A DNA stretch of 64,000 bases. It comes from Monosiga brevicollis MX1. Taxonomy: Eukaryota > Opisthokonta > Choanoflagellata > Craspedida > Salpingoecidae. The notes beneath the pieces are model-generated. The model was not told where the DNA came from and did not search any database. It saw nothing but the letters and a program-made list of their open reading frames with translations. A program made the translations under genes and the position numbers. The stretch lies in contig NW_001865041.1 in the NCBI RefSeq assembly GCF_000002865.3, positions 193,918 through 257,917 on the forward strand, written 5' to 3'. Of this stretch, positions 32,879 through 55,874 are shown piece after piece; position 1 is the stretch's first letter, and every line of letters begins with the position of its first letter.

Positions 32879-33574
32879 ATGGCAGCGGGCGGGACGGGAG
32901 AGATGGCGACTGGGGCTGGGGTGGGCGCGAGCTGGGAAGACGTGGCCAAGATGACTGTGTATGATCATCAACAAGAGCCCTGCAGCCTTGGCAGCCTATG
33001 CTCACCCGGTCAAATGACCGCCATTGGTACGTTGGCTCGGGACAACTCTGCTCGTGTTCCGCCACCGCTCATCACGCATCACGCTACGCTGCCACCTCGC
33101 GTGTGTCGTCTAGTTTTTGTGCGGCACTTTTTATGATTTGTGTGCAAGGATTATGTTACCGATCTTGCCCGCGTGCCTGACGAGCACTGGGCTGGAGCGC
33201 GTGTGGTGGTGATTGGCTGCGCCAACCCCGTCTTTATCGACCGCTTTGCCGCTGACACCGGCTTCCCGGCCAGCAATGTGTATTGTGACCCGAAGCGTGA
33301 GGTCTACCAAGCCTTGCAGCTTCCAAGCGTCTTGGCCGCCATCAATGCATCTAAGAGTATCCACATTCACAGTTCGGCGCTTGGCGGCACGATGAACAGC
33401 ATCTATCGGGGCCTTCGTGCCATGCGTGCCCAAGGCAACGTAAAACAACAAGGTGGCGCCTTTGTCGTCAATGGCCAAGGCCAACTCATCTACGCCCATC
33501 GAGACCAGCGGCCCGAGGATCATTGTCCCATCAACACGCTGCTTGAGCAAGTGGGGGGTCGACCTTTTTTTTAA
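32879..33574 (+). CDS. PRXL2C: PRXL2C (AAED1/SelU3)-like thioredoxin-fold protein, probable selenoprotein
   Basis: Peroxiredoxin-like family in which fish and protist members use UxxC and human PRXL2C uses CxxC (family knowledge). Exon 1: 32879-33029 (MAAGGTGEMATGAGVGASWE ... QMTAI plus G). Intron 33030-33113. Exon 2: 33114-33574. Joined in phase, exon 2 begins VFVRHFL, then TGA at 33134-33136, then FVCKDYVTDL; human has VFVRHFLCYICKEYVEDL at this place. The TGA therefore falls exactly on the first active-site Cys, giving U-F-V-C. Downstream, VVVIGCANPVFIDRF, VYCDPKREVYQAL, QQGGAFVVNGQGQLIYAHRD and PINTLLEQVGG fit the family, with TAA at 33572. No SECIS could be confirmed because a 50-N gap begins 13 bp after the stop. 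A pseudogene or sequencing error is the alternative, but everything else is intact. Confidence 0.85.
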
Positions 33575-33587
33575 ATTGCCGATGAGC

Positions 33588-33637
33588 NNNNNNNNNNNNN
33601 NNNNNNNNNNNNNNNNNNNNNNNNNNNNNNNNNNNNN
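33588..33637. other. Assembly gap of 50 N
   Basis: Exactly 50 N, probably a placeholder size. It is flanked by a run of C and (CA)n at 33638-33675, a likely reason for the sequencing break. It hides the proximal 3' UTR of the PRXL2C-like gene. Confidence 0.95.
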
Positions 33638-33640
33638 CCC

Positions 33641-33671
<31 letters not shown>

Positions 33672-33675
33672 ACAC
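33638..33675. repeat. (C)n(CA)n simple repeat
   Basis: About 20 C followed by about nine CA units at the edge of the gap. Confidence 0.85.
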
Positions 33676-33929
33676 CGCCACGAGTGGCCCCCCTGTGAAG
33701 GTTGCGCTTGAAATTGTCTTGTGAACAAGGGCACAACCCGACTCCGTCCCGGATTCCGCTTGACTGGCCGATGTGTATGTGACTGGCGACGGTCTTGACC
33801 GGGCTCTCGTGAGTGTTCTTTGTTGGTTGGCATTCCTTTCCTTATCAATAACAGACAAACTATCGTGTATGTGCCCATGAGCACAGACAGACAAAGACAC
33901 GAGTATCTCTTGGGGATCCAATTGATCAA

Positions 33930-36583
33930 TTACTCATCCACCTCGTCGTCCATGGCCTCTTCAGACTCTACATGCTCCTCATCCACATCTTCTTGCACGC
34001 CCTCTTCTTCCTCATCGACCTCTTCACCTTGATCGTCGTTCTCAAGTGCAGTGTCAGCGTCTGATTCCATATTCTCGTCGTGGGCCGCCTCATCGGAATT
34101 GTGAGGAGCCTCGCCTTGCTCCGCAGCCTCGTTGACCTCAACGTCAAACTCCTTGGCCAGCTGAATCTGCACGTCACCCTCAAATCGCTTCACGAGACTG
34201 ACCAGGATGGTCTGCTGAAGCTTCTCATCGAAGGATTCAGTCGAGACCAGATATGTCTGCAACAGCTGCTTGCACTGGTGGGCGTAGTCCGGGTTGTCCT
34301 CGTGGCGCGGCGTTTCGCCCTCCTGCGCCATCTTCAGAATCATGTTGAGCGAATCAGCAATCTGCTCAAGTTGGGGCAACCGCGCAAACACGTCGGCGCT
34401 CAACTGGTGTAGCTTCCAGTGCCGACGGGCTTGGCGATATAAGAGCTTGTCAAAGACCTCTGGCAGGCGTTTGACGGTTCGTTCCCAGTTCTGCAAAAGG
34501 GTGTTGCACATAAACCCTGCCGCAGCATAGTTGAGCGCCACCGGGAATTGCGTCTGGTGCATGAGGAACCAATGGTAAATGTACAGTGGTCGTGTCAGGT
34601 CACCCTCGGACATGGCCAGGCATGCCACTCGCTGCAGGATGAGTTGCAGACTAAAGTTGCCCTGAGAAAAACAAAAGGTGCAGGAGTGCCCACGACCACG
34701 AAATACACCGTCAGACTCAGAGTCAAAGAGCCACGTCGCGCCGAAAAATGAGGCACATTCAAAGGTGACGACACGTACATCCACGGCGTGGCGGAGCGCT
34801 TTGGGGTTGTCAGTTCCGCGGTGGTCTGCAGGTGAATCAATGATTTCCTTCCGATGAGCAATGGCGTCTTCTGCAAGCATGTTGGCAATGGCGGCCACGT
34901 GATCCTATGTGACATTCAAGCGTGGGTGGATGATGAGGTATGTAATGTCAATCGATCCGGGGCTTCTCCCACCCCGCCTTCTTTTTTGGCCCTGCCCGCC
35001 GCTCTTCTTCTTCATTTTTTATCAACATGTTCTGCTCCGATCAGCCAACACTGACCTGCACGATGGAGCGAGTCAACTCGGGTACCACGTGTTTGGTCCG
35101 AGACAATACCGCGCGCAGGTTGTTGGAACAATGCAGCAACTGTCATGGACATGGCCACATGCATGCCACAGCATCCAGAAGTGCGTGAGACAGAATTGCA
35201 ATGCACTCTGAGACTTCAAGCAGCCGTCCATTGCGCGGCAAAGCTCACCTGCAGAAGAATGCGAAGCTGTTCGTCATGGCGCGGAAGCTTGCAAGCAGTG
35301 ATATTAGACTCCAATCGAGAGACGGCGATTTGGGCAAACGTCCATGCCAGGTGTGGGTGCAAGAGCATGAGGCCCACATCCAAAAGGGCCGTGGGCTCTT
35401 GAGCCAGGCTCGTCAGCGCTGCTTCAAGGTCTGTGTACATTTGGTCGGAGATGGCAGCGTCCTGGCATACCATGGTCAGGAGGGTCGCAAAACGACTGCA
35501 AGGGTCCTTGCTGGCAATGGCATCGGCCCCGGCACGGGTCAAGCCGTGGGATAGGCGTAGGCGTAGGCAGCCATAAGCCGGCTCGCCGTGCTTGACAAAT
35601 TGGCTGCGTAGCTCAACCAAAAGGGCTTCATACAACTTCATCTTGCTCCCAACGAGCTGCAGGAGCTCGGAAATCTCCGACGTGGCCTCCTCATCCAGGT
35701 CTGCGAAGGGATTGTCAAAGAGGCGATCGAAGAGCACGGGCAGCAGGCAGCGCTGGTTTAATCGCAAGGCAGCTTGGCGCAAGAACGGCCCAGCCACTGC
35801 CGTGAAGGCACCGGGTTTGGCCACCCACAGCTGCTGCTTCACATTGAGGTTGCACTGTTCCAAGAGGGTGGGGTGATTTTGCAGCTCTTCCAAATAACTG
35901 GGCTCGAGCTCGGCATTTTGGTTGAGGAGCTGGACCACGAGTGGTTGGATCTCCTCTGTAAGGGCAAAAGGCCAGCACAACTTGAGCGTATCCGTCAGCT
36001 GCTTGGTCGACATGGACGGGATGCGGGAGGCAAACAGCTCTTTGGCATGCGCCAGCACTGCTCGGTTCATCTGGTTTGTGACCCCGTGACGCATCGGATG
36101 AGCATGGCGCAAGGTACACACTTGGCCAAGAGGGCGCGCTGTGTTGGTCGGTCGCAAATCTAACCTCTGCGCGTGGGATGTTGAGCAGCCGCAGCATGGG
36201 CCAGGCAGGTTCTAGTAACGGCACCGTATGATGCTGTCCCAATGTTATGTGATGTTGGGGTGCGGTCAAAGGAGCGGACGCATGAGATCATGGAAGACAA
36301 ATTAGATCCAACACCCAGGACGGGGGGGGGGAGGTGGGTGATCAGTGACAGCAATAAGGTACGACGCTCAAGTGCAAGTGCACGGGAGGAAAGGCTTGCA
36401 TGCATGGGCGAATGCGTGCACCTGTTGGAAGTCACGGATTTCTCGGCGCGAGCGAAGCTTGGCGATGCGCTCCTTGACCGTGCGCCGGTCGAAGGGCAAC
36501 TGATAGCCCGATCGATCCGCAAGGCGCACGCGGCCCGACGGGCCCGCAGAGGCGGCGTGCGCAGCATCACGCCGTTGCTCCAT
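33930..36583 (-). CDS. NELFB: NELF-B (COBRA1) negative elongation factor subunit
   Basis: Subunit of the complex that holds RNA polymerase II in promoter-proximal pausing (family knowledge). Start MEQRRDAAHAASAGPSGRVR at 36583; second exon near 36240-36162 (PMLRLLNIPRAE); the long exon from 36071 runs MNRAVLAHAKELFASRIPSM ... NLNVKQQLWVAKPGAF, GSKMKLYEALLVELRSQFVK, CLRLRLSHGL, KDPCSRFATLLTMVCQDA and SDQMYTDLEAAL, which line up with human NELF-B blocks (VEVKRQIW, GKNVKLYDMVLQFLRTLF, VDPCHKFTWCLDACI). Later exons: LYIYHWFLMHQTQFPVALNY and DKLLYRQARRHWKLHQLSAD. The C-terminus differs from human: about 60 residues very rich in Asp/Glu (34110-33930), ending DDEVDE. Divergent from the FAPP2-like gene. 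Confidence 0.82.
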
Positions 36584-54584: not shown

Positions 54585-55874
54585 TTACTGTCCAAGAATG
54601 GTGTACTGGAGGATGCGCTGCATCCCTTCGGGCACCAAGGCCGCCAAAATCCGGGTCGCATATAGCTCAGCAAAGGGATAGAACACCTCGCGTTGCCGCC
54701 GCTGTACTCCTGTGGCAATCGCGCGCGCCGTGTCTGCCGCCGACACGCGTGGGATGTGGTCAATTTCGCCGTGCGTGTTCTCGCGCGCTGATGTCGTGTC
54801 AATACTACCCAGAATGGCCAGAGTCATGGAGATATTGCTGGCCCGCTCGGCTAGCTCAAAGCGCAGCGAGTTGAAGAAGCCATGGAGCGCATGCTTGGTG
54901 GCAGCATAGGTGGCTACCCGTGGCAGGCCCAGCAGGCCCGCAGCCGAGCTCACTACAGCAAGGCGGCCGTTGGTAGCCTCCAAGTACGGGAGGGCATGCG
55001 CAGCCACATAAATATAGCTGAGGCACAGCCAGGTGGGTGCGATGAGCGGGTCAGAGGCTGAACCAGCAGAAACGGTGGACATTTTGCGAGCCAGAAAGCG
55101 CCAGACAGACCTGTAGGTGTTGACGCCAAAGTACCATTCCAAGTGACTGCTGATGTTGTTGTCCGCCATGTCCGTGAGCCAGTTCCCCCAGTAGCCGGCA
55201 ACGTGGTTCAGGATGACCGTGTCGATGCCCCCCATGTGCTCGGCGGCAGTGGCGACGAGTGCCTGAGCTCGAGCCTCTTCAGCTAGATCGCCTGCGACCA
55301 CATATGGCTAAAAGGGCACGACCAGATCATCAACCAAGGCGAACGATGAGCTGTGGAGCTGTTCAAGCCAAAAGAGGCGGCTAGTTGAGCATCCGAGTGT
55401 GTAGCGCCCGAGATGACACACCGTGCCGCCAAGCTGCTGGCAGCGCTTGGCTGCGTCGTTGAGCGGGCCCGTGCGACGAGCAGCAAGAACAACCTAGATG
55501 TCCAAGGCGAGCCATCATGCGCAGCTAGCTGACCGAACATGGGATGGGTCAAAGAGAGGCTGAAAGACGGCAATTCAGACCTGGGCATGATTTCGGCAGT
55601 ACAGCTGCATCAACTCAAAGCCGATGCCTTGGGAGCCCCCAGTCAGGATTACGCGCTGGCCTGCCAAGAAGCGATGAGCACACCAGACAAAAAAAAAAAA
55701 AAAAAAATCAGACAACCCGGAGCCAGTCTATGCCAGGGCAGGCGCTACCACTCGGCACAACTGACCCTGCAATTCCTCTTCTTGAAATCGTCGCCAACCA
55801 TTGTTGGGAATCACCCGAGTCAGCACCACAGCCAAGACCATCAGGGCCAACGCCCAGTGCCACCCGGCCGCCAT
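54585..55874 (-). CDS. 11-beta-hydroxysteroid-dehydrogenase-1-like short-chain reductase
   Basis: Membrane-anchored SDR. Start MAAGWHWALALMVLAVVLTR at 55874 gives an N-terminal anchor, then NNGWRRFQEEEL. Exon 2 (about 55655-55579) carries the NADP(H) motif RVILTGGSQGIGFELMQLY; exon 3 VVLAARRTGPLNDAAKRC; the last exon (55308-54585) PYVVAGDLAEEARAQALVAT, GGIDTVILNHVAGYWG, RLAVVSSAAGLLGLPRVATY and YAATKHALHGFFNSLRFEL, with the Ser-Tyr-Lys catalytic set (Y-A-A-T-K), and SMTLAILGSIDTTSA. NHVAGYWG in place of NNAG is typical of the 11-beta-HSD1 branch. Complete, about 330 residues. Substrate unknown; steroid use is not implied. Confidence 0.9.

Follow-up and report, generated by a model that had tools for sequence, protein, structure and literature searches.

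A SelU-family gene of the choanoflagellate Monosiga brevicollis in which an in-frame TGA very probably encodes selenocysteine

The stretch of DNA analysed here (the window) comprises 64,000 nucleotides of contig C54 of the Monosiga brevicollis genome and contains, on its plus strand, a two-exon gene of the SelU (PRXL2, Prx-like2) family whose reading frame is interrupted by a TGA codon. The coding part of exon 1 extends from the ATG at 32879 to 33026 (32879..33026, 148 nt) and ends in phase 1. It is followed by a phase 1 GT-AG intron of 87 nt at 33027..33113, with the GT donor at 33027 and the AG acceptor ending at 33113, and by exon 2 at 33114..33574, which encodes the Prx-like2 (AhpC-TSA_2) domain. 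The joined frame, assembled from the sequence by script, comprises 202 residues with one internal stop only, the TGA at 33134..33136, and ends at the TAA at 33572..33574. The TGA specifies residue 57 and is read here as selenocysteine (Sec) in position 1 of a UxxC motif, while the second Cys of this motif (C60) is encoded by the TGC at 33143..33145. A preliminary description, made without database searches, had read exon 2 as VFVRHFL-TGA-FVCKDYV after an in-phase splice, with a frame that stays intact for about 145 codons past the TGA and in which family blocks continue. This reading holds: the intron is of phase 1, the TGA is followed by 145 open codons up to the TAA, and the family domain lies within them, at residues 76-181; the coordinates and the N gap given in that description were likewise correct.

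The gap, of 50 N, lies at 33588..33637 in the 3′ UTR of the gene and is followed by a run of C and an AC repeat. A run of eight T residues in 33564-33587, directly 5′ of the gap, overlaps the stop codon, and because this run at the stop is so close to the gap the last residues of the predicted C-terminus are uncertain. There is little room for a 3′ UTR before a convergent neighbour on the minus strand (33930-36157), which includes a homologue of COBRA1 (NELF-B; PF06209, E 3.1e-20 for 35219-36157); Pfam gave no match on the minus strand for 33933-34898.

On the joined protein, Pfam AhpC-TSA_2 (PF13911) matches residues 76-181, all downstream of the TGA, with an E value of 4.1e-18 and a score of 66.2 bits, the cut-off being 27 (E 4.4e-17 in the genome search), and the protein combines this domain with the CxxC/UxxC motif, the combination by which SelU/PRXL2 proteins are recognized. 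The TGA aligns with the Sec or Cys of homologues and is flanked by homology on both sides, which is weaker on the N-terminal side, where PF00578 reaches 24.5 bits at residues 24-120 against a cut-off of 26. Among solved structures, phmmer matched the whole window protein to prostamide/prostaglandin F synthase (9us9_A, E 1.6e-5), and in this alignment the TGA residue corresponds to the first Cys of CVVC, as had been claimed in the preliminary description for the first Cys of CxxC. The sole internal stop of the 202-residue frame therefore coincides with the CxxC Cys column, which is more than expected by chance. The window protein and PRXL2B (prostamide/prostaglandin F synthase, PDB 9us9) are alike in this aligned motif and in their domain, but 9us9 is a Cys form, and M. 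brevicollis has a separate PRXL2B-like Cys gene. This second family gene, found by the family search of the genome, is a single exon at C51:531464-531954 with the site FGCRLC, and it matches 9us9_A far more strongly (E 8.4e-21) than the window protein does. A sequence of human PRXL2C, which we take to be the same protein as C9orf21, served as a lead only; it is identical to the window protein in 63 of 180 columns (35%) and covers the N-terminal side too. The label SelU2 (PRXL2C) is provisional; it comes from pairwise comparisons that covered PRXL2C, with this identity, and PRXL2B, with a weak match. The nearest NCBIfam model is SelL_rel_redox, at 91.6 bits below its cut-off of 120, and one scan of prokaryote genomes yielded no relative.

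Beyond the N gap, the 3′ UTR contains a SECIS-like element on the plus strand at 33695..33742, which was found by our own scan and by folding and which begins 120 nt past the stop when the gap is counted as 50 nt. It reads GUGAA (33695-33699), then GGUUGCGCUUG, AAA (33711-33713), UUGUCUUGUGAACAAGGGCACAACC and CGAC (33739-33742). In the predicted fold, helix II is formed by 33700-33709 with 33729-33738 (9 bp, one C-A mismatch), the AAA is unpaired, and an apical mini-stem lies within 33714-33728, with CUUG-UGAA-CAAG at 33718-33729 as its alternative. According to the scan, the element has the non-Watson-Crick UGA/GA quartet of a type-2 SECIS (UGAA/CGAC), its helix II and its AA before the apical mini-stem (here AAA), and it has GUGA in place of the AUGA in which an A precedes the quartet. 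The scan looks for R-UGA-N, 10-13 nt and AA, and for NGAN, with a helix II that has no fewer than 8 bp and an energy of -10 kcal/mol or lower, and it forces the quartet and the AA to be unpaired. Visual inspection had already shown the elements of SelU and of a glutathione peroxidase-type gene (GPx) when the scan was written, and the energies of the SelU, GPx and SelW elements were known when its thresholds were finally fixed, the match in the SPS gene being the only one blind to this setting. The element at 33695-33742 is the one start that the scan gives in the SelU 3′ UTR, and an equally good element arises in 5 of 1000 dinucleotide shuffles of 33638-33930. The unconstrained minimum-energy fold of 33680-33770 contains helix II and leaves the AAA unpaired, but pairs GUG 33695-33697 elsewhere rather than leaving it for the quartet, and this fold is no more stable than those of shuffles (z 0.33). 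A SECIS search of the 3′ UTR, which had been proposed in the preliminary description, gave a divided result in this region, part of which consists of Ns. The Rfam SECIS families, run with Infernal, gave no match at the gathering score in the whole window, and the four Rfam matches with E up to 10 in 33540-34000 did not include a SECIS, while our own scan placed an element in the 3′ UTR past the gap. It may be because of the GUGA signature that A-based SECIS models miss these genes.

Elements of the same kind accompany other genes with an in-frame TGA. The genome was searched for known selenoprotein families (Rdx, GSHPx, selD, Sep15_SelM and MsrA), the exons being read by eye, and three genes were found with a TGA at the site in question: a GPx on C56 (L013) with an active-site TGA (VINVA, then SF-TGA-GETKMSYEGM), a SelW on C48 (L012; MAQPVNVHVVYCGA-TGA-G, site YCGA-U-G), and an SPS (SPS2) on C47 (L016/L017; TDYAKLKG-TGA-GWFDP). 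These TGA positions are the established Sec sites of the three families, and gene models of GPx, SelW and SPS that stop at the in-frame TGA would be truncated. Five genes have the Cys form, namely Sep15 (ILEMCNCKL), MsrA (GTGCFWG), one GPx on C36 (GQCG), another on C50 (SECG), and the PRXL2B-like gene. MsrA was considered as a possible Sec form, as there is a TGA inside the match C5:49576-49740, but this match as a whole is downstream of the catalytic Cys (GTGCFWG), which puts the TGA off the Sec site, and the gene was counted as a Cys form.

Our scan finds an element at each of the four TGA genes (SelU, GPx, SelW and SPS), on the strand of the gene, and none at the five Cys-form loci, the latter being covered for about 1.5 kb to either side of their matched exons, a distance that does not necessarily take in the full 3′ UTR. 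The GPx element (L013 2271-2313) starts 65 nt after the stop of its gene and the SelW element (L012 2171-2217, reverse strand) 527 nt after the SelW stop, while the SPS element (L017 2469-2514, reverse strand) lies about 540 nt past the last recognised block of a gene whose C-terminal exon is unmapped. In a total of 281 kb of strand drawn from 25 sources, a sum in which loci that overlap are included, the scan gave two matches besides those in the 3′ regions of the four TGA genes, and both of these lie in the window. Shuffling was applied to SelU, GPx and SelW, and dinucleotide shuffles did as well in 2 of 1000 cases for the GPx 3′ region and in 9 of 1000 for SelW. The spacing GUGA-N13-AA is common to the four elements; it was taken from alignment A7, MAFFT having put the elements in the wrong register in some alignments and partly so in others. 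A covariance model built from the SelU and GPx elements and run over 16 loci found its own two members and ranked SPS (E 1.1) behind a chance match (0.059); SelW was not among its matches. When the GPx, SelU and SelW elements were folded with their flanks, lower helices of 6 bp, 7 bp (plus a side hairpin) and 3 bp, respectively, were predicted, with long internal loops and no common geometry. Both of the other places in the window were set aside, 55413-55463 on the plus strand as a chance match and 54211-54158 on the minus strand as probably one; the latter lies about 370 nt past an ORF that ends in TAA. The minus-strand segment 54158-54211 folds into a stable stem that resembles a SECIS (-22.5 kcal/mol, GUGAG...AAA...GGAG), and the ORF upstream of it resembles a short-chain dehydrogenase when read by eye.

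The genome also contains genes of the machinery for Sec insertion. The tRNA-Sec gene, with anticodon TCA (L004 1501-1586 = C55:481253-481338), scores 65.7 bits, well over the gathering score of 47, and ARAGORN, too, reports a tRNA-SeC (anticodon tca) at this position; the loose form of the tRNA-Sec search also matches all 14 control genomes, five of them over the cut-off. SepSecS is represented by five exon matches on C20, each above the cut-off, and the stops inside three of them were taken for intron ends. Domain 4 of eEFSec was matched at E 6.8e-21 and in none of the 14 control genomes, which are prokaryotes. The two selD/SPS matches are below the whole-protein cut-off, in a search that also gives loose matches in all 14 control genomes, and the active site has its own TGA. 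The matches to a probable PSTK at C56:2296158 (L022) are weak and under the cut-off, and no NCBIfam model scores better than PSTK on either of the two stretches tried; a KTI12-family match first taken for PSTK is far below the PSTK cut-offs and more likely KTI12, which leaves C56:2296158 as the better candidate. An M. brevicollis SBP2 sequence stands in the published alignment, as far as this is given in the relevant part of PMC2746813. The machinery in the genome thus includes tRNA-Sec, SepSecS, SPS2, an eEFSec domain and probably PSTK, with SBP2 taken from that paper. The preliminary description had named tRNA-Sec, SBP2 and eEFSec as genes to look for, and both the tRNA and an eEFSec domain were found, with SepSecS and SPS in addition.

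The alternatives to Sec (base error, pseudogene, alternative splicing and another amino acid) would each have to coincide by chance with both the element and the sister genes. A sequencing or assembly error, by which the real codon would be TGC or TGT and the gene an ordinary Cys-form PRXL2, draws on the closeness of the gene to the N gap and on the frequency of Cys forms in the family (PMC3473315, in passages on SelU), but the gap is about 450 bases away from the TGA codon, and the error must have hit the CxxC Cys exactly, in a gene that also bears a GUGA element like those of three other TGA genes, and we regard it as very improbable. Even less probable is a true stop, as TGA is in the standard code, in a recent pseudogene or in the gene of a truncated protein of 56 residues: there is no further stop in the 202-codon joined frame, the 56-residue product would be without the PF13911 domain, the next in-frame ATG (33392) is deep inside the domain, and a DNA search of the genome (39.5 Mb, 57 contigs) found exon 2 once and no second copy of it. 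Similarly improbable is that the TGA is spliced out through a later acceptor, or that another amino acid is inserted by near-cognate read-through, editing or a changed code, as of the AGs downstream (ending at 33148, 33184 and 33197) only 33197 keeps the phase and its use deletes the UxxC and a conserved block, and general reassignment of UGA is unlikely because the GPx frame, as read, terminates in TGA just past its last conserved residues.

The selenocysteine reading put forward in the preliminary description is supported by the SECIS-like element, by the three other TGA genes and by the Sec machinery genes, and it is concluded with high confidence that the gene is a Sec-containing SelU (PRXL2, Prx-like2) member in which the UGA of codon 57 encodes Sec. 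Judging from the anatomy of the gene, decoding would follow the standard eukaryotic route, with tRNA-Sec(UCA) delivered by eEFSec, and would be directed by the GUGA-type SECIS in the 3′ UTR, to which SBP2 is expected to bind. Sec would occupy the place of the first CxxC Cys of relatives, giving a thioredoxin-fold oxidoreductase whose nucleophile is a selenol and whose resolving residue is a Cys (UxxC), and in which, by analogy with the family, the U57 selenol and the C60 thiol would form the redox pair. SelU gene models that stop at the TGA at 33134-33136 would then be wrong.

Several known systems are comparable. As described in sections of PMC3473315, Sec forms of SelU1-3 occur in invertebrates, and among the invertebrates examined there the Sec form of SelU2 is found in Trichoplax only. 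The Trichoplax adhaerens SelU2 (C9orf21 type) resembles the M. brevicollis protein in having Sec in a Prx-like2 protein, but the latter comes from a choanoflagellate, outside the animals, and its assignment to SelU2 is provisional, depending on the human PRXL2C sequence that served as a lead. All vertebrate Sec-form SelU proteins fall in the SelU1 group according to a portion of PMC3316567, and SelU is reported from Ostreococcus and Thalassiosira in part of PMC2375036. The SelU1 selenoproteins of fish, birds and invertebrates and the SelU of these two algae share with the M. brevicollis gene the family and the use of Sec for Cys (PMC3316567, PMC3473315 and PMC2375036, in the parts cited), whereas the M. 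brevicollis gene is of another subfamily or lineage. GUGA elements make up 12 of the 21 SECIS of the sponge Amphimedon and also occur in green algae, and they are like those found here in that G replaces A before the quartet and AA stands in the apical part (PMC3473315, passages on SECIS). In M. brevicollis, by comparison, GUGA is present in all four elements examined, and the lower helices predicted for three of them have no common geometry. A passage of PMC6188563 states that tRNA-Sec is one of the differences between Capsaspora and the two choanoflagellates compared; as worded in that passage, the statement is contradicted by the M. brevicollis tRNA-Sec gene. A Monosiga SELO homologue is listed in a section of PMC3281104, and Monosiga is not named in the main text of the Secmarker paper (PMC5330540). 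Searches of open-licence literature by title and abstract, a scope outside which subscription journals fall, found no paper on choanoflagellate selenoproteins, nor did a search for PRXL2C/AAED1 with selenoprotein find one.

On balance, we favour the view that a functional Sec system operates in M. brevicollis, with four selenoproteins or more (SelU2, GPx, SelW and SPS2), all of them driven by GUGA-type SECIS elements, and that this system is undescribed in the literature searchable here. Choanoflagellates are the sister group of animals. If this view is correct, both Sec-containing SelU2 and the GUGA element predate animals, and the change of PRXL2C from Sec to Cys took place within animals. 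The SelU gene is a new example of a known use of Sec, as in some animals and algae, and its interest lies in the age of the trait and not in a new mechanism. A Sec-form SelU in a choanoflagellate would fix that age, Sec in the SelU2 line having previously been recorded in one animal only, according to passages of PMC3473315.
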